NCBI GenBank assembly: GCA_021773835.1
Contig: JAJFJQ010000062.1
Coordinates: 1-64,000 of the forward strand
DNA: 64,000 bases
Direction of reading: 5' to 3'
Source of the DNA: Gammaproteobacteria bacterium
GTDB taxonomy: Bacteria > Pseudomonadota > Gammaproteobacteria > Ga0077536
Shown one piece after another: positions 13,079-21,129 of the stretch. How positions within the stretch are numbered: the stretch's first letter is position 1; the number at the start of each line of letters is the position of its first letter. A program made the translations under genes and the position numbers. Under the pieces are notes generated by a model, which worked only from the letters and a program-made list of their open reading frames with translations, ran no database searches and had not been told where the DNA came from.

Positions 13079-13414
13079 ATGGCCAAGAACATGAGATTGA
13101 AGCCGGTTGCGGCTGCCTTGGGAACGACTTTTGCGGTAACGCTCGCGGCTTCGCCACTGGCAAATGCGGCCGAGAACCCGTTCTCAGTGACTTCATTCGA
13201 TTCCGGCTACATGGTGGCGGGTGACACTGAAGGCAAATGCGGTGAAGGCAAATGCGGCGGCGACAAAGCCGAAGGCGAAGGCAAATGCGGTGAAGGCAAA
13301 TGCGGCGGTGATAAAGCCGAAGGCGAAGGCAAATGCGGTGAAGGCAAATGCGGCGGTGACAAAGCCGAAGGCGAAGGCAAATGCGGTGAAGGCAAATGCG
13401 GCGGTGACAAGTAA
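13079..13414 (+). CDS. hvfA: Bufferin/HvfA-type RiPP metallophore precursor with eight-Cys EGKCG repeats
   Basis: The 111-aa precursor has three parts. Residues 1-30 are a Sec signal peptide ending ANA. Residues 31-50 are a short acidic spacer (ENPFSVTSFDSGYMVAGD). Residues 51-111 are almost pure EGKCG repeats with Cys at 54, 59, 70, 75, 86, 91, 102 and 107. EGKCG is the modified motif of bufferins and HvfA peptides. In those families the MNIO enzyme converts Cys to thiooxazole or oxazolone/thioamide groups that bind copper in the periplasm. The signal peptide with no separate leader is typical of bufferins. The gene precedes the MNIO maturase by 11 nt and has the strongest ribosome site of the operon, fitting a highly made substrate. 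The chemistry is inferred from family knowledge. Confidence 0.9.
   Translation: MAKNMRLKPVAAALGTTFAVTLAASPLANAAENPFSVTSFDSGYMVAGDTEGKCGEGKCGGDKAEGEGKCGEGKCGGDKAEGEGKCGEGKCGGDKAEGEGKCGEGKCGGDK
13229..13411 (+). repeat. 48-bp in-frame tandem repeat, 3.8 copies, in the RiPP core
   Basis: Units lie at 13229-13276, 13277-13324, 13325-13372 and a truncated 39-nt copy at 13373-13411. Each full unit encodes 16 residues with two EGKCG motifs and a GDKAEG linker. Full units differ only at two silent third positions (GGC/GGT and GAC/GAT), so the amplification is recent or kept uniform by recombination. This is coding repeat DNA, not a CRISPR. Confidence 0.97.
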
Positions 13415-13425
13415 CCGCAAGGTAA

Positions 13426-14286
13426 ATGCCTGACCAATATCCAGTAACGGGGAAAGGGCTGGGACTGCGGCGATCGTTTTTACGGAAGTTGCAGGCCCGG
13501 TCGCTTGATGGGGTCGACTTCATGGAAGTCGCACCGGAGAACTGGATCGATGTTGGCGGCCAATTTGGCCGCCGATTTCGTCAGATCTCAGAAGTCATGC
13601 CGTTTGTGTGCCATGGATTATCCTTGAACCTCGGTGGCCCGGCCGCATTGGACGAACCGTTCGTGCGTCGCATCAAGCAGTTTCTAGATAGTCACCAAAT
13701 CCGATGCTATAGCGAACATCTAAGCTATTGTGCCGACGACGGCCACTTGTACGACTTAATGCCGATTCCGTTTACCGAAGCGGCCGTGAAATATGTTTCG
13801 GCAAGGATCCGACGCACGCAACAAATCCTTGAGCGACGTATTGCAATCGAAAATGTCTCATATTACTGCGCACCTGGCGCGGAAATGAGCGAAATTGAAT
13901 TCATCAACGCGGTTTTGATCGAGGCAGACTGCGACCTTTTGATCGACATAAACAATATCTACGTTAATAGTATTAATCACAAATATGACCCAGTGACGTA
14001 TATGCAAGCGCTACCGGCGGACCGAATTGCCTACGGCCATATCGCCGGTCATTACGATGAAGCAGACGACCTCAGGGTCGATACGCACGGCGCCGATGTG
14101 ATTGACAAAGTCTGGGATCTACTCGAGCTCGCGTATGCGCACTTTGGTGTGTTCCCTACGCTACTCGAACGCGACTTCAACATACCTCCTATCGCAGAAC
14201 TTGTAGCAGAAGTGGCACGTATCGGCGAGACGCAAGAGCGCTATCGCAATGATTCGGGCTCATCCGATGCCGTCAGCCATGGCTGA
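13426..14286 (+). CDS. hvfB: MNIO-family (DUF692) RiPP maturase HvfB/BufB
   Basis: Multinuclear non-heme iron oxidase that modifies Cys of the precursor. The 286-aa TIM-barrel protein has the metal-ligand pattern in order: GLGLR at residues 11-15, EVAPENW near 34-40, HGLSLNLGG from H63, YSEHLSY with E97 and H98, IENVSYY with E142 and N143, [15 protein letters not shown] with D174 and H185, GHIAGHY with H205 and H209, VDTHG with H221, and LLERDFNIP with E248. All positions expected of MbnB/BufB relatives look filled. It starts at ATG 13426, 11 nt after hvfA, with only a weak AAGG, suggesting translation tuned below that of the precursor. Its end overlaps hvfC. Confidence 0.93.
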
Positions 14287-15046
14287 ACCGAGTACGGATT
14301 TTCGTGCGCTGCAGCTCGAATTTACCGCCCACATTCGTGACCCCGACAATAGCCCGGCACCGGGCGGGATTGAAGATCGCCGCCTAGAGATCTATCGAGA
14401 TCTCCTGTACCGCAATATCGAAGGATTTCTCGCCAATAGTTTTCCGGTATTGCGTAGCATCACCGCAGATCCGGAATGGCACGCGATGGTGCGCCACTAC
14501 TTTGCCCAACATCGTGCGCGAACCCCGTTATTTCCAAAGCTTCCACAAGAATTTCTGCATTACCTCGCGGAAGAACGAGACCCACACGATGGCCCACCAT
14601 TTATGCAGGAGTTGGCGCATTACGAATGGTTGGAACTCGAGGCTTCACTGGATACGCGTGAAATCGATGCCGTATTGGTGGACGAAAATGCGAATTGTCT
14701 AACCGGCATCCCTGTCCTGAATCCGATTGTGCGAGCGCATTCTTATCAATTTCCGGTGCATCGCATTAGTCCTAGCTTCCAGCCGCGAGAGCCTGGTGAT
14801 GAATCGACCTATTTGGTGGTCTATCGTGACCGGGACGACGAGGTAGGATTCATGCAGTTGAATCCAATCACAGCGCGTCTCATCGACTTAATAATGCAAA
14901 ACCCCGACACGGCGGGACGCTCCCTACTTCTTCAAATTTCTGAAGAAATGTCGCATCCGGATCCCGAGGTCGTTATCTCAGGTGGCGCGGAAATCATGAG
15001 CGAGCTGTGCCAACGCGAGGTACTTTTAGGCGCGCGCGAAGTCTAA
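14279..15046 (+). CDS. hvfC: HvfC/BufC (DUF2063) RiPP maturation partner
   Basis: DUF2063 proteins pair with MNIO enzymes and are thought to recognise the precursor and activate or position it. The N-terminal domain carries the family signature: [41 protein letters not shown] and [24 protein letters not shown]. The C-terminal half is the variable domain. I chose the ATG at 14279 (255 aa, [12 protein letters not shown]), which overlaps the hvfB stop by 8 nt. Earlier in-frame ATGs at 14249 and 14267 would overlap hvfB more and add no conserved sequence. A stoichiometric complex with HvfB is likely by analogy with MbnB-MbnC. Confidence 0.88.
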
Positions 15047-15144
15047 ATTCGGCACCGTTTGCGACAATCTAAGCCCCGCACACAGCTCGTTGCATCGGTG
15101 CATAATAGGCGCCGCGGGACCCTACAACTTTTGGAGGTGACGGG

Positions 15145-16659
15145 ATGGAGGTTGGCCACGTCTCTGCGTTTCTTTTATCGACGCTTGAGGTACTTGCAGC
15201 GGTATTCGTCTTTGGCTGTGGCCTCGGTATTATCGCTGTCGCCATAATCTACGTTATCGATCGAAACCAGACCGCGCACGCGGTGCGCCGTAACTATCCG
15301 GTGATCGGGCGTTTTCGTTATCTATTCGAACATATTGGCGAATTTTTTCGTCAATATTTTTTCGCAATGGATCGCGAAGAGTTACCGTTTAATCGAGCAC
15401 AGCGGAGTTGGTGTTACCGCGCGGCAAAAAATGTGGACAACACGACCGCATTCGGATCGACCCGAGATCTTCGGGTCAACGGTTCGGTTATTTTCGTAAA
15501 CTGCCCCTACCCGACACTGAGTGAAGATGCGGTTGAGCCAGAGCCAATGACGATCGGGCCGACTTGCGCAAAGCCGTACCGAACGGACTCATTAGTTAAT
15601 ATTTCTGGGATGAGCTACGGCGCCATATCACGGCCCGCAGTTCTGGCGTTATCAAACGGCGCTCAAATTGCCGGGTGTTGGATGAACACCGGGGAAGGTG
15701 GTCTATCCGACTATCATCTCGAGGGTGGCGGCGACATCGTATTTCAGATCGGAACCGCGAAAAACGGTGTGCGCGACCTCGACGGCAAATTAAGTGACGA
15801 TAAACTGCGCGACGTCGCGGCCTTTGAACAGGTTCGAATGTTTGAAATTAAACTGAGCCAGGGTGCGAAACCGGGAAAGGGCGGGATCCTGCCCGGGGCT
15901 AAGGTCAGTGAAGAAATCGCTCGGATCCGCAATATCCGAGTCGGCGAGGATGCTATCAGTCCCAATCGCCATCCGGACATCAATTGCAATGAAGACCTGC
16001 TGGATATGGTCAATCATGTGCGCAATGTAACCGGGAAACCGACTGGTTTTAAATGTGTCATCGGGGCCTATGGTTGGCTCGACGAGGTATTTGAAGAAGT
16101 TCACCGTCGGGGTATTGATTGCGCACCGGACTTTATTACCGTTGACAGCGCTGACGGGGGAACTGGCGCCGCACCGCTGCCGCTAATCGATGACATGGGG
16201 TTGCCTTTGCGGGAGAGTCTACCGCTATTGGTTGATAGCTTGGTCAGACATGGTTTGCGGGATCGAATTAAAGTAATCGCATCAGGTAAGTTAGTAACCC
16301 CGGCGGATGTTGCCTGGGCGCTATGTGTCGGCGCCGACTTCGTTGTTTCTGCCCGTGGGTTTATGTTTGCATTGGGCTGCATTCAAGCGTTGCAATGTAA
16401 TCGTAATACTTGCCCGACGGGTATCACGACGCATGACGTGAAACTGCAACGCGGACTAGTACCGGAAGACAAAGCAGTTCGAGTCGCCAGCTACTGCAAG
16501 AATTTGAACCACGAAGTGGGCATTATCGCGCATTCCTGCGGCGTGCCTGAACCTCGCCGGCTAAAGCGATTTCATGCCCGGATTGTCGCTGACAACGGAA
16601 AATCGATCCCGCTGAATGAACTGTATCCCGATCAAACGCCCCGTGAGGTCGCGTGTTGA
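15145..16659 (+). CDS. Membrane-anchored FMN-binding glutamate-synthase-family protein
   Basis: The 504-aa protein corresponds to the FMN and central part of the glutamate synthase large chain (GltB/COG0069) without the amidotransferase domain. Residues about 8-38 form one transmembrane helix. The barrel contains ISGMSYGAISRPAVLALSNGA, NTGEGGLSDYH, KPGKGGILPGAKV, TVDSADGGTGAAPLP and a late IQALQCNRNTCPTG that supplies the Cys ligands of a 3Fe-4S cluster. A strong GGAGGTGA precedes the ATG by about 6 nt. It lies 98 nt after hvfC and 57 nt before hvfX, so it sits inside the RiPP locus. The natural substrate of these orphan enzymes is unknown; a role in supplying electrons to RiPP maturation is only a guess from position. 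Confidence 0.85.
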   Translation: MEVGHVSAFLLSTLEVLAAVFVFGCGLGIIAVAIIYVIDRNQTAHAVRRNYPVIGRFRYLFEHIGEFFRQYFFAMDREELPFNRAQRSWCYRAAKNVDNTTAFGSTRDLRVNGSVIFVNCPYPTLSEDAVEPEPMTIGPTCAKPYRTDSLVNISGMSYGAISRPAVLALSNGAQIAGCWMNTGEGGLSDYHLEGGGDIVFQIGTAKNGVRDLDGKLSDDKLRDVAAFEQVRMFEIKLSQGAKPGKGGILPGAKVSEEIARIRNIRVGEDAISPNRHPDINCNEDLLDMVNHVRNVTGKPTGFKCVIGAYGWLDEVFEEVHRRGIDCAPDFITVDSADGGTGAAPLPLIDDMGLPLRESLPLLVDSLVRHGLRDRIKVIASGKLVTPADVAWALCVGADFVVSARGFMFALGCIQALQCNRNTCPTGITTHDVKLQRGLVPEDKAVRVASYCKNLNHEVGIIAHSCGVPEPRRLKRFHARIVADNGKSIPLNELYPDQTPREVAC

Positions 16660-16716
16660 CCCATTACCTAATCTTAATTCGTACGAATTAATCATGTCCG
16701 ATTGAGGAGCGATGCG

Positions 16717-17364
16717 ATGAGCATACTAATTTGGTGCCAAAATTTATTCGATAGAGTCCGTGTCGTGTTCGATTTCATCGGCCCAGTGCTGCTGCGTCTA
16801 TATTTAGTACCGGTATTTTTCGTGGCGGGAAGCAACAAATGGGATCCGTTCGCTGAAAACGGGACATTGGACCCGACTGTAGGTCTCAAGGACATTGCTG
16901 ACTGGTTTGGAAATCCCGATTGGGGACTCGGTTTGCCGGCCCCAATGTTGATGGCAATACTTGCATGGGCGGCCGAATACGTCGGCGCAATTTGTTTGGC
17001 TTTAGGCGTTGCCGTTCGTTGGATCTGTGTGCCGCTGATGATAACCATGGTCGTCGCCATGACTACCGTTCACTGGGACCACGGTTGGCAGGCGGTTCAC
17101 GATCTGAAAAGTCCCTACGCATCTGAAAATGCTGAGGGCGCGATTGAACGCCTAAGCGCAGCCAAAAGTCTGCTTAAGAAACATGGCAACTATAAGTGGC
17201 TTACCGCGAACGGCAATTTTGTGATATCGAATAACGGAATCGAGTGGGCTGCGACGTACTTCATTATGCTGGCTGCACTGTTCTTTCTAGGTGGCGGCCG
17301 ATACTTTAGTGTTGATTATTGGATCCGTAGAAAATACGGGCTACCCGATCCCCAGCAACAGTAA
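16717..17364 (+). CDS. hvfX: DoxX-like membrane protein HvfX (BufD/GigD type)
   Basis: The 215-aa protein has about four transmembrane helices, with the DoxX pattern RLYLVPVFFVAGSNKWD near residue 28, a second helix from AILAWAAEYVGAICLALG, and a last one near FIMLAALFFLGGG. The His-rich segment TTVHWDHGWQAVHD could bind metal. DoxX genes of this kind are the fourth gene of many bufferin/gig/hvf operons (HvfX, GigD). I use the ATG at 16717, with GAGGAG 7 nt upstream, rather than the TTG at 16702. Here the gene is separated from hvfABC by the FMN enzyme, a less usual order. Its precise function in RiPP maturation or redox coupling is not established. Confidence 0.82.
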   Translation: MSILIWCQNLFDRVRVVFDFIGPVLLRLYLVPVFFVAGSNKWDPFAENGTLDPTVGLKDIADWFGNPDWGLGLPAPMLMAILAWAAEYVGAICLALGVAVRWICVPLMITMVVAMTTVHWDHGWQAVHDLKSPYASENAEGAIERLSAAKSLLKKHGNYKWLTANGNFVISNNGIEWAATYFIMLAALFFLGGGRYFSVDYWIRRKYGLPDPQQQ

Positions 17365-17369
17365 ACCCT

Positions 17370-17393
17370 TCGAGCCGGGCGGCTACGGCTCGA
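17370..17393 (+). terminator. Hairpin after hvfX, possible terminator
   Basis: TCGAGCCG (17370-17377) pairs perfectly with CGGCTCGA (17386-17393) around an 8-nt loop, just after the hvfX stop. It is followed by CTTTAG rather than a long T tract, so termination may be partial and the antiporter gene may still be co-transcribed. Confidence 0.4.
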
Positions 17394-17427: not shown

Positions 17428-18657
17428 ATGTCACTGCCGGAAACCGTCGTTCTGGTCTCGGTCGCGCTTATCGTTGGCGCGGCGCTGTTACCGATCTCGC
17501 GAAAACTAGGCGTGCCGCACTGTGTGCTACTGGTGCTTATCGGATTCATTGGGTCTGAGCTGGTAATCGCCCTTGGTATCGATACCGGGCTACGTTGGCA
17601 TCATTTCAGCGGTATCGTATTTTATTTGTTGATCCCGCTACTGATTTTCGAAGCAGCACACCGGGTTGACGTGAAAGCGCTTCGCGGCTTGTTTAGTTTG
17701 ATCTTGCTACTTGCAATCCCCGCATCGATTCTAAGTGCGGTCGGTGCCGGCGTTCTTTTCTTTTGGATGATTGATCACCCCGTCGGGTTCCCGCTCTTAG
17801 TTGCCCTACTCACGGGCGCCATCGTCTCGCCAACCGATCCTACCGCTGTCGTTGGCCTTTTAAAGCAGCTACCCGGAGCACAGCGGGTCGCCATGATTTT
17901 GGAAGGTGAAAGTCTATTCAACGATGCAACGGCAATTGTGATGTACTCGCTGCTACTTGGACTAGCATTGATGCAACAGTCAGTGCCATCGGCAGGGCAG
18001 ATAGCAGGAATGCTGTTCTTTGTTTTAACCGGCGGCCTCGGCTTAGGTCTCGCGGTCGGCATTGCAGTTAGATGGCTTAATGGATATGTCAATAACGTGG
18101 ACGCCGAAGCGCTAATATCCGTTGCGGTGGCGTACACTGTTTTCATCATTTGCGAATATTGGTTTGGGCTCTCAGGTGTCGTTGCGGTGCTTGCCTGTGG
18201 CCTGGTAGTGGCGGACAAATCGCGAACAGGAAGGACCGTCGCGGCTCCCAGTTGGCGAATTCTCAGCCTGGCTGCCGAGATCTCGGTATTTTTAATTGCG
18301 GGCGCGACAATTACCTGGATCTTGTTACGTGACCAATGGCTTGCCATGCTGATCGGGATCGTGGGCGCGTTGTGCGCGAGAACCATCGCAGTATTTATTA
18401 CAGTATCGTTTTGGAATTACGTTAAGCGGACAGAGCAACCGTTCGTGCTATCGGAGCAAATGCTAATCGCCGCCGGCGGCGCGCGCGGTGTCGTGACCTT
18501 AGCACTGGCTCTATCTTTGCCGTTAGAGCTAGAGGCGTGGTTTACGGTTCAGGCGATTGCTTATGGGGTCGCGTTATTTACACTATTCGTGCAAATACCA
18601 ATAGTGTCAGTGTTACTACAGCACTCATCTCGGTGGCGAGCTACTCGGATTGGGTGA
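17428..18657 (+). CDS. CPA1-family cation/proton antiporter
   Basis: The 409-aa integral membrane protein has about 12 hydrophobic segments, as in NhaP/CPA1 Na+(K+)/H+ antiporters. Diagnostic motifs are GAIVSPTDPTAVVGLLK (the ion-binding ND/TD region of helix 5) and EGESLFNDATAIVMYS (helix 6). Another is AAGGARGVVTLALALSLP near the C terminus. There is no cytosolic C-terminal regulatory domain. It begins 63 nt after hvfX, beyond a hairpin, so it could be the last gene of that operon or an independent unit. Cation preference cannot be told from sequence. Confidence 0.88.
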   Translation: MSLPETVVLVSVALIVGAALLPISRKLGVPHCVLLVLIGFIGSELVIALGIDTGLRWHHFSGIVFYLLIPLLIFEAAHRVDVKALRGLFSLILLLAIPASILSAVGAGVLFFWMIDHPVGFPLLVALLTGAIVSPTDPTAVVGLLKQLPGAQRVAMILEGESLFNDATAIVMYSLLLGLALMQQSVPSAGQIAGMLFFVLTGGLGLGLAVGIAVRWLNGYVNNVDAEALISVAVAYTVFIICEYWFGLSGVVAVLACGLVVADKSRTGRTVAAPSWRILSLAAEISVFLIAGATITWILLRDQWLAMLIGIVGALCARTIAVFITVSFWNYVKRTEQPFVLSEQMLIAAGGARGVVTLALALSLPLELEAWFTVQAIAYGVALFTLFVQIPIVSVLLQHSSRWRATRIG

Positions 18658-18708: not shown

Positions 18709-21129
18709 CTAGTGCGTGATTCCAGTGCCACTTAGTACTGGACGCGGCTGGTCAATCAGTAAACCCTGCACGTAGTCGACGCCCATTCCCAACAGCGAGT
18801 CTTTGGTTGCGAGCGTAGTTACACCTTCAGCGATTGTTTTAACGCGTAAGGTCTTGGCTATTCTGCTGAGTGCGAGCACGATTTCGTAGTCCACGGAATT
18901 GTAGGCCATGTTGCGGACAAAATTGGCGTTGATCTTCAAATAATCAACCTGCAGCCGTTTTAATAGTTCAAATGAGCTGGTGCCGAGACAGAAATCATCG
19001 AGCGCAATTCGACAACCCAGTTCCTTCAACGTGGCAATAAAAAATTGCGCGCGATCGACGCTGGAAATCAGGCTAGCTTCGGAAATATCAAAACATATAC
19101 GCTGATTATCGAATTCATCGTCCAGCAGATTAACAATATACTCAAGAAACCTATCGTCGTTTATCGACTGCCCAGAGATGTTGATGCAAACGGTCTCCAT
19201 TTCATTCAGTGCCGGATGATTTAGTCGCAATGCGTCTATCGCAGCCTTGGTAACCCAACGGTCAATATCGGGCATCAATTGATAGCGTTCGGCGGTCAAG
19301 AGGAAATCGCGAGGAGAAAGAATTTCACCGCTACTGTCTTGCATACGAAGTAGCACTTCACAGGTCCGCGGATGATGATCTTCGCCTCTAATCGGGTGAA
19401 TATGCTGAAAATAGAGTTCAAAATGACCGGTCTGTATCGCCGACTGTACTTGGCGCACATGCTCGATACTTTCGCTGTAGTGCTGTTGTGATTCCTCACC
19501 TTGACCGAAGGTGTGTACCCTGTTTCCGCTGTCCTTCTTCGCGCAATCGCACGCTGCCTCAGCATTACTAAGGACATCGGTGAGGCCGTCTTCCGCAGGA
19601 TTTATCCCTACAACGCCGATGCTGACGCTAATAGAAAGATCGTTACCGTGCCAATCAGTCTGAAAATCTTCGACGATACGTCGGAGCCCCTCGGCAATTA
19701 ACCGCGCTTTATCTAGTGGACATGCGTATAGCAGTACGCCGAATTTATCCTCACCGATTCTGGCGAGCGTGTCGGCCCCGCGAATTTTTTGCTTGAGTTC
19801 GATCGCAATTGACTTCAACACATGGTTCCCAGCTTCCACACCGTGTGTTTCATTGATGAATTTAAACTGGTCGAAGTCGATGAAGCACAGCGCGTGTCGT
19901 TTTTGATCCGAATCTATATTGGCAGACAGCAGTTTCTTGATTCTGTCTTCAAACTCTGTGCGATTTATAAGATTGGTTAGAGGATCGTGGGTTGAACGCC
20001 AGGCAACGTTCTTAATCAGGTTTCTTTTGGTTGTTATATCTCGAATAAGGCATGTCGTTCCTGTAGATACACCACGGTCGTTTTTTATTGCCGAAAGTTG
20101 AAATTCGACTTCGTATTCAACGCCATCGCACCGTTTTAAGACTGTGCGGTCGCCGTTGCTTTGTACGCGCGCTTCGGTTCGAGTTTGCTCAACGAGCCCG
20201 CGTAGTAAATTTTCACCACCGAGCGAAGTCATCGTTACGACGTCTTCTATATTTTGGCCGTGGGCATCACGAAATAGAACGCCGGTTAGCACTTCGGCGA
20301 CTGGATTCATGTAGTCAACTAAGTTTCGGTCGTTGGTTGTAATGATTGCGTCCCCAATCGCGTCTAAGGTGGCGCACGCGCGGCTGTGTTCACGAGCAAA
20401 ACGTTTCAGAGCTCTAATTCGCTGCTCGAACACTCGCGATAGGTCGCCGGAACTGGTCTGGTTATCGGCCCCGCCGATGCCTATAAAACTCGTCAAGGTG
20501 TCTACGATGTACCGTATATATTTCGTGCAAACTGATGCCAGCAATAGTGCCATGACGAGCGCCGACGCAGCATATAGCTCGACGTAACTAAGATGCGAGT
20601 TTCGACCAAATCCGATCGCGGCTAAGATCGCGAATAGGGATGCGAACACCAGGTAAGCGCCGCGATGCACCGCAAAAACTGGAATTGCTGCAGTCGCTAT
20701 GATCAAATTTATCGCGATGACTACCACGAGCACCGCATGTGAAAGCATGGGAGCGAAAACGATCCCGCATGCTCCCCAAATAGCGGCGAATATTAACGCC
20801 ATCGCGATGTGCGTGTAGCTTGCGTTCGGATCGATATGTAGAAATCCGTACGCGAATTTACGGGCTATTAGAATGTATAAGCCTGCGTTTAAGGATACGA
20901 GCAACAGCCACGCCACCGTAACGGAACGCGGCGCGTGGTCCCAAACCAGAATTGAACAGGCGAGAGCGGCAATCGCATTGATCGAACACCACCATAAGCT
21001 CGCATGTCGGATATAGGTATCGCTAATTAGGGAAGAGGGCGGCGTCGCTATATCGTCCACGCCAATATGATCGCCGAGGGGCCGGGTGAGATGAGTCGCT
21101 GAATTTTCCATTTTGGTGTCGTAATACAC
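18709..21129 (-). CDS. Membrane PAS-GGDEF-EAL protein; degenerate cyclase, intact phosphodiesterase residues
   Basis: The 806-aa protein has an N-terminal membrane region (about residues 45-215, six or seven hydrophobic segments), a PAS domain (about 250-370), a GGDEF domain (about 385-540) and an EAL domain (about 550-800). The GGDEF signature is IGEDKFGVLL: the second Gly and the Glu are replaced, so cyclase activity is unlikely. The EAL side reads CEVLLRM and keeps the key residues: the N of INIS, the E of FDISE, DDF, the K of LKIN, AEGV and VQG. This suggests a c-di-GMP phosphodiesterase controlled by the PAS/membrane part. The start is uncertain: GTG 21129 or ATG 21111, neither with a clear Shine-Dalgarno. 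Two CRP-like sites lie upstream. Confidence 0.88.
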   Translation of the reverse strand: MYYDTKMENSATHLTRPLGDHIGVDDIATPPSSLISDTYIRHASLWWCSINAIAALACSILVWDHAPRSVTVAWLLLVSLNAGLYILIARKFAYGFLHIDPNASYTHIAMALIFAAIWGACGIVFAPMLSHAVLVVVIAINLIIATAAIPVFAVHRGAYLVFASLFAILAAIGFGRNSHLSYVELYAASALVMALLLASVCTKYIRYIVDTLTSFIGIGGADNQTSSGDLSRVFEQRIRALKRFAREHSRACATLDAIGDAIITTNDRNLVDYMNPVAEVLTGVLFRDAHGQNIEDVVTMTSLGGENLLRGLVEQTRTEARVQSNGDRTVLKRCDGVEYEVEFQLSAIKNDRGVSTGTTCLIRDITTKRNLIKNVAWRSTHDPLTNLINRTEFEDRIKKLLSANIDSDQKRHALCFIDFDQFKFINETHGVEAGNHVLKSIAIELKQKIRGADTLARIGEDKFGVLLYACPLDKARLIAEGLRRIVEDFQTDWHGNDLSISVSIGVVGINPAEDGLTDVLSNAEAACDCAKKDSGNRVHTFGQGEESQQHYSESIEHVRQVQSAIQTGHFELYFQHIHPIRGEDHHPRTCEVLLRMQDSSGEILSPRDFLLTAERYQLMPDIDRWVTKAAIDALRLNHPALNEMETVCINISGQSINDDRFLEYIVNLLDDEFDNQRICFDISEASLISSVDRAQFFIATLKELGCRIALDDFCLGTSSFELLKRLQVDYLKINANFVRNMAYNSVDYEIVLALSRIAKTLRVKTIAEGVTTLATKDSLLGMGVDYVQGLLIDQPRPVLSGTGITH

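Follow-up and report, generated by a model that had tools for sequence, protein, structure and literature searches.

The window analysed here, a stretch of 64,000 nucleotides (nt) of contig JAJFJQ010000062.1 from a Gammaproteobacteria bacterium, carries on its + strand, between positions 13079 and 17364, a cluster for a copper-associated ribosomally synthesized and post-translationally modified peptide (copper-RiPP). The cluster has the order hvfA-hvfB-hvfC-FMN enzyme-hvfX (Table 1), where the FMN enzyme denotes a flavin mononucleotide (FMN)- and 3Fe-4S-dependent protein resembling glutamate synthase. This enzyme belongs to copper-RiPP clusters of the Hvf (EGKCG, thiooxazole) kind as a true but optional component. 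The five genes stand in the order and single direction given in a preliminary description, which was also correct about the gaps of 98 nt between hvfC and the FMN gene and of 57 nt between the FMN gene and hvfX (counted from ATG 16717, with TTG 16702 as a possible alternative start); hvfA and hvfB are 11 nt apart. The likely start of hvfC is the ATG at 14279, which gives an 8 nt overlap with hvfB (ATGGCTGA), while its longest open reading frame begins at 14249. A clear GGAGGTG ribosome site can be read in front of the FMN gene, and a scan of the gaps between hvfC, the FMN gene and hvfX for terminator-like hairpins found none, matches to such hairpins being suggestive only. The NhaP-like gene that follows the hairpin downstream of hvfX probably lies outside the core operon.

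Table 1. Features of the hvf locus in the window
Feature	Position	Strand	Basis
hvfA, EGKCG-repeat RiPP precursor, 111 amino acids, signal peptide, 8 EGKCG in four 16-residue repeats	13079..13414	+	NCBIfam KCGExKCG_twice 57 bits (cut-off 19.5)
hvfB, MNIO maturase (PF05114)	13426..14286	+	NF003818 434 bits (cut-off 360); PF05114 340 bits
hvfC, DUF2063 partner protein	14279..15046	+	NF050145 302 bits; PF09836 and PF22106; sequence
FMN/3Fe-4S glutamate-synthase-like membrane-anchored oxidoreductase, 504 amino acids	15145..16659	+	PF01645 288 bits; AlphaFold model; fold match; invariant Cys
FMN enzyme, N-terminal transmembrane helix, about residues 8-38	15166..15258	+	hydropathy maximum 2.75 around residues 16-38; helix 2-41 in model
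FMN enzyme, 3Fe-4S ligand motif C412-x5-C418-x4-C423	16378..16413	+	invariant columns; aligned with glutamate synthase cluster Cys
hvfX, DoxX-family membrane protein	16717..17364	+	NF050144 217 bits (cut-off 80); PF07681
Terminator-like hairpin 3' of hvfX	17370..17393	+	8-bp stem, 6 G-C pairs, T-rich tail
NhaP-like cation/proton antiporter, past the hairpin	17428..18657	+	PF00999 157 bits

Judged by family models, the cluster is of the Hvf/oxazolin (EGKCG) type and not bufferin proper, because the maturase passes the HvfB model (434 bits against 360) and fails that of BufB (257 against a cut-off of 310); of the joint Bufferin/Hvf label applied earlier, the Hvf half stands and the bufferin half falls. 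HvfC (302 against 142 bits; domains DUF2063 and NGO1945_C) and HvfX (217 against 80) also exceed their NCBIfam cut-offs, and family searches gave no match to a DUF2282 or BufA2 precursor among the proteins of the cluster. HvfA contains exactly eight cysteines, every one of them within EGKCG as previously claimed, in four 16-residue repeats preceded by an N-terminus that by eye resembles a signal peptide; it scores below the HvfA equivalog model (65 bits against 95) and above the cut-off of the KCGExKCG domain.

The only strong family match of the FMN enzyme is to Pfam Glu_synthase (PF01645, 288 bits), that to FMN_dh being weak. The model for full-length glutamate synthase (NF008730) yields 124 bits against a cut-off of 1047, and family searches found no amidotransferase, central or GXGXG domain. 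Of glutamate synthase, the protein comprises just the FMN/3Fe-4S synthase domain, set on one N-terminal transmembrane helix. Its AlphaFold model (predicted local distance difference test score of 85) and its sequence both point to glutamate synthase large chains as the nearest solved structures (1ofd, 6s6s and 1ea0; about 24% identity over the domain, template modelling score of about 0.6 over the query in Foldseek), with which it shares the fold and the spacing of the cluster cysteines; C412, C418 and C423 are invariant among 71 homologues. In the alignment, the glutamate synthase active-site residues are only partly kept: E184, K242 and R262 align with E903, K972 and R992, which bind 2-oxoglutarate in the Synechocystis enzyme, whereas the position of Q978 is Ile in at least 90% of the 71 rows and the PPPHHD motif reads PNRHPD. 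The membrane anchor is a further difference from glutamate synthase. Basic residues (R40, R48, R49, R56 and R58) follow the hydrophobic helix, so the positive-inside rule predicts a cytosolic catalytic domain. The direct periplasmic thiol chemistry raised in the preliminary description is disfavoured on this prediction.

The frequency with which this enzyme adjoins Hvf genes was surveyed in 369 genomes of one class, whose named relatives are mostly Gammaproteobacteria. The FMN enzyme (counted at E <= 1e-150) is carried by 127 of these genomes, HvfB (matches above the cut-off plus one just below it) by 118 and HvfX by 103. Both the FMN enzyme and HvfB occur in 58 genomes, and in 27 of them the two genes lie no more than 7 kb apart, in 26 cases with a shared strand; the next closest pair is separated by 160 kb. 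The FMN enzyme and HvfX are at most 5 kb from each other in 29 genomes, where they invariably share a strand and in 27 cases lie within 850 nt; the next closest pair is 255 kb apart. These counts are lower bounds, given that contigs are broken. Uniform placement in genomes of an assumed 3 Mb would give, roughly, 0.3 genomes for FMN-HvfB and 0.04 for FMN-HvfX; because the genomes are related and their size is assumed, exact binomial P values mean little. Co-location nonetheless spans 22 families, and the association of the FMN enzyme with Hvf operons is real and far above chance. The counts rule out an oddity of one strain, the survey outcome that would have refuted the preliminary description, and membership in the operon, which had been left conditional, is borne out by recurrence.

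The arrangement of the genes varies from locus to locus (loci are designated L, genomes G and contigs C). The order of the window, A-B-C-FMN-X, is found again in L036, L168, L173, L174 and L178, and its wider layout prfB-lysS-A-B-C-FMN-X-NhaP ... argG recurs in L076, from an uncultured gammaproteobacterium. Other loci read A-FMN-X-B-C (L156 and L158, and L162 with a short A-like frame), A-B-FMN-X-C (L157, L161, L166), A-B-C-X-FMN-NhaP (L159, L163) or A-B-C-ALS-ALDH-FMN-X-NhaP (L169 and L176; L160 and L175 begin at hvfB), where ALS stands for an acetolactate-synthase-like gene and ALDH for an aldehyde dehydrogenase gene. Six genomes of the class and the family relative G035 have C-FMN-X with nothing in between, in six more class genomes C and FMN are separated by ALS/ALDH or other genes and X comes after FMN, and in 10 loci the frames of FMN and hvfX either overlap or are at most 25 nt apart. 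The copies linked to Hvf are not grouped in a single clade: a quick tree of 89 tips, picked to include linked loci, with some weak nodes and with gains and losses indistinguishable, requires 22 state changes against 24-36 in shuffles. A single ancient insertion is disfavoured by this scatter, and since the operon orders also vary, the FMN-Hvf link arose or was lost many times.

It could be argued that the FMN gene is a bystander, held beside Hvf genes by chance or passive synteny and with no functional link to them. Synteny of this kind does occur, since Hvf loci have neighbours that look passive, namely rnf-nth, lysS and argG, and L032 and L035 keep the FMN enzyme at the lysS locus after loss of hvfB/hvfC and decay of hvfA. 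However, the co-location in 27 of 58 and in 29 genomes, the shared strand, the permuted orders, the overlapping frames and the many independent transitions strongly disfavour this explanation, which is very improbable. As to these neighbours, rnf-nth lies upstream of hvfA in 13 of the 20 Hvf loci without the FMN gene (L231-L250) and in many that bear it (L156-L178); it therefore goes with Hvf rather than with the FMN enzyme, and its inclusion in an FMN module was ruled out. Between the Hvf operon and argG, the window also holds an 806-amino-acid GGDEF/EAL-like regulator (named by eye; 18709-21129, - strand), which is kept in related genomes (L033, L036 and L037).

Within these clusters, HvfX is a closer partner of the FMN enzyme than HvfB, as 8 of the 29 FMN-HvfX loci have no HvfB nearby. 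A PF05114 search detected no MNIO in three genomes that carry the FMN enzyme and HvfX, namely G171 (99% complete) and G180 and G375 (85% complete), and in L032 and L035 hvfB and hvfC are gone and hvfA retains its signal-peptide region without EGKCG repeats, yet the FMN gene remains. The FMN enzyme is thus not bound to the MNIO, and its closest constant neighbour is HvfX. G171 has an EGKCG-rich precursor gene beside its FMN-HvfX pair (L164, contig C13, 6552-9360), a strong terminator-like hairpin separating hvfA from the FMN gene, and a second EGKCG peptide locus on contig C11. The FMN gene of G171 and that of G378 had seemed to be disrupted by in-frame stops, but both reading frames run uninterrupted for 494 amino acids, which puts the stops beyond the end of the gene.

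Given that HvfX is a recurrent, tight neighbour always placed on the same strand, we infer, tentatively and as a reading that falls a little short of probable, that the FMN enzyme works on the cytosolic side of the membrane as a redox partner of HvfX. Several findings weigh against such a pairing. In 92 of the 127 carrier genomes, the FMN gene has no HvfB or HvfX gene in its vicinity, and in 46 of 67 genomes HvfX lies near HvfB with no FMN gene nearby, so HvfX does not need the FMN enzyme. HvfX has no conserved cysteine, and a fold search of its model against the Protein Data Bank gave no significant match, so that a quinone or thiol site in HvfX is a guess. Finally, the grouping of ALS, ALDH and FMN genes at loci without Hvf suggests that the FMN enzyme has a metabolic role of its own.

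This last point leads to a different proposal, in which the FMN enzyme, the ALS-like thiamine pyrophosphate enzyme and the ALDH would form a copper-stress metabolic module that converts a small 2-oxo or amino substrate. The module would be merely co-regulated with the peptide cluster, as a bypass or repair where copper damages the usual enzymes, and would make no direct contact with HvfA, HvfB, HvfC or HvfX. That copper attacks glutamate synthase is background that is not used here as evidence, and a literature search on copper and glutamate synthase gave mainly plant work. NhaP, ALS (NF006187, 720-772 bits, above cut-off) and ALDH genes are repeatedly found next to the FMN gene, whether Hvf genes are present or not, NhaP in 20 of the 88 surveyed FMN loci, and none of the three was found at the 20 Hvf loci lacking the FMN gene; many FMN loci, with Hvf genes and without them, have ALDH or ALS directly beside FMN. 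A second FMN copy in the source genome (71% identity; G000 contig C47:302782-308850, or L039:5783-11851) overlaps at its 3' end an ALS frame and is divergent from a DUF2282-BufB-DUF2063-DoxX (Buf1) operon. Another FMN-ALS pair stands between a BufA2 operon and a DUF2282 operon in L186 (G382:C11, 5070-13388); the FMN enzyme is present three times in G382 (L186, L187 and L188), with MNIO genes near just one of these copies. The conserved equivalents of E903, K972 and R992, with their role in binding 2-oxoglutarate, would also suit a metabolic substrate. Against this, neither ALS nor ALDH is present in the window or in most A-B-C-FMN-X loci, the most constant neighbour is a membrane protein, HvfX, and the glutamine at position 978 is replaced by Ile. 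A metabolic module of this kind is a close competitor of the HvfX pairing, conceivable but rather doubtful.

A third possibility is that the FMN enzyme serves as a dedicated reductase of the MNIO, giving the electron for the active mixed-valent Fe(II)/Fe(III) state of HvfB or keeping the HvfA thiols reduced. HvfBC does require a reductant for both its mixed-valent diiron cofactor and the HvfA thiols, a need met in vitro by dithiothreitol (DTT) or ascorbate (PMC13419390), and whether MNIOs depend on an external reductant is described as an open question (PMC13097082). The predicted cytosolic location of the FMN enzyme matches that of the modification step, and its gene lies within the operon. 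The proposal is nevertheless improbable: the FMN enzyme and HvfX occur together in three genomes without a detectable MNIO, most Hvf loci have no FMN enzyme, and HvfABC and FonABC yield modified peptide in heterologous hosts without it, the thiooxazoles being made by HvfB/C or FonB/C (PMC13097082, PMC13419390). Together with the many FMN genes far from HvfB and HvfX, these findings speak against a dedication to maturation, one of the roles first suggested for the enzyme. Also unlikely is the broader proposal that the FMN enzyme and HvfX constitute the missing electron-supply unit of copper-RiPP pathways, common to Hvf and bufferin systems, which would provide reductant for the MNIO mixed-valent state or the precursor thiols with HvfX as the link to the quinone pool.

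The oxazolin Hvf cluster of Haemophilus (hvfABCX) and the fontiphorin/'captophorin' MNIO-PME1 clusters share with the window a signal-peptide EGKCG precursor, an HvfB-type MNIO, a DUF2063 partner and a DoxX-family HvfX, but no glutamate-synthase-like gene is present in those published clusters that were examined. Bufferin clusters (BufA1/BufA2, BufB, BufC, DoxX) employ the same enzyme families, and the FMN enzyme stands divergently beside such operons on contig C47 of the source genome and in L186; the window differs from them in its maturase score and in its EGKCG precursor, which is not of the DUF2282/BufA2 kind. N-methylglutamate synthase subunit MgsC is likewise a stand-alone FMN-binding glutamate synthase domain protein, but it has as partners the amidotransferase-like MgsA and the GltB3-like MgsB (PMC6237917), and neither of these is encoded beside the FMN enzyme, whose neighbours in the window are hvfC and hvfX. 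A precedent for redox accessories in electron supply is provided by the ferric reductase and oxidored_molybd genes of a few EGKCG clusters, which belong to families other than that of the FMN enzyme (PMC12452194). The same survey of the MNIO landscape admitted unrelated genes only within 10 bp (PMC12452194), a limit that the FMN gene, with gaps of 57-98 nt, would escape. The gene is mentioned neither in that paper (PMC12452194) nor in PMC13097082 or the Microbulbifer cluster paper, the scope being these texts, with supplementary tables and subscription papers outside it. Within this literature, the FMN enzyme is a real and undescribed companion of the copper-peptide pathway.

Altogether, the preferred pairing of the FMN enzyme with HvfX leads to a model in which the two proteins would act together in redox chemistry at the inner membrane, their interaction and the electron transfer between them being proposed. 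Electrons would pass between HvfX or the quinone pool on one side and, on the other, a cytosolic donor or substrate, for instance ferredoxin or some small 2-oxo or amino compound. The pair would be active in response to the very stress, copper or oxidative, by which the peptide is induced. The FMN enzyme would then act alongside the peptide pathway as an accessory redox module, with no modifying role on HvfA; electron supply through HvfX or to the MNIO is possible. MNIO copper-RiPP clusters are an active field of research, in which the need of the MNIO for an external reductant is open and any role of DoxX proteins is a matter of conjecture (PMC13097082; see also PMC13419390). A redox gene that recurs next to HvfX offers a concrete candidate partner for both of these questions.

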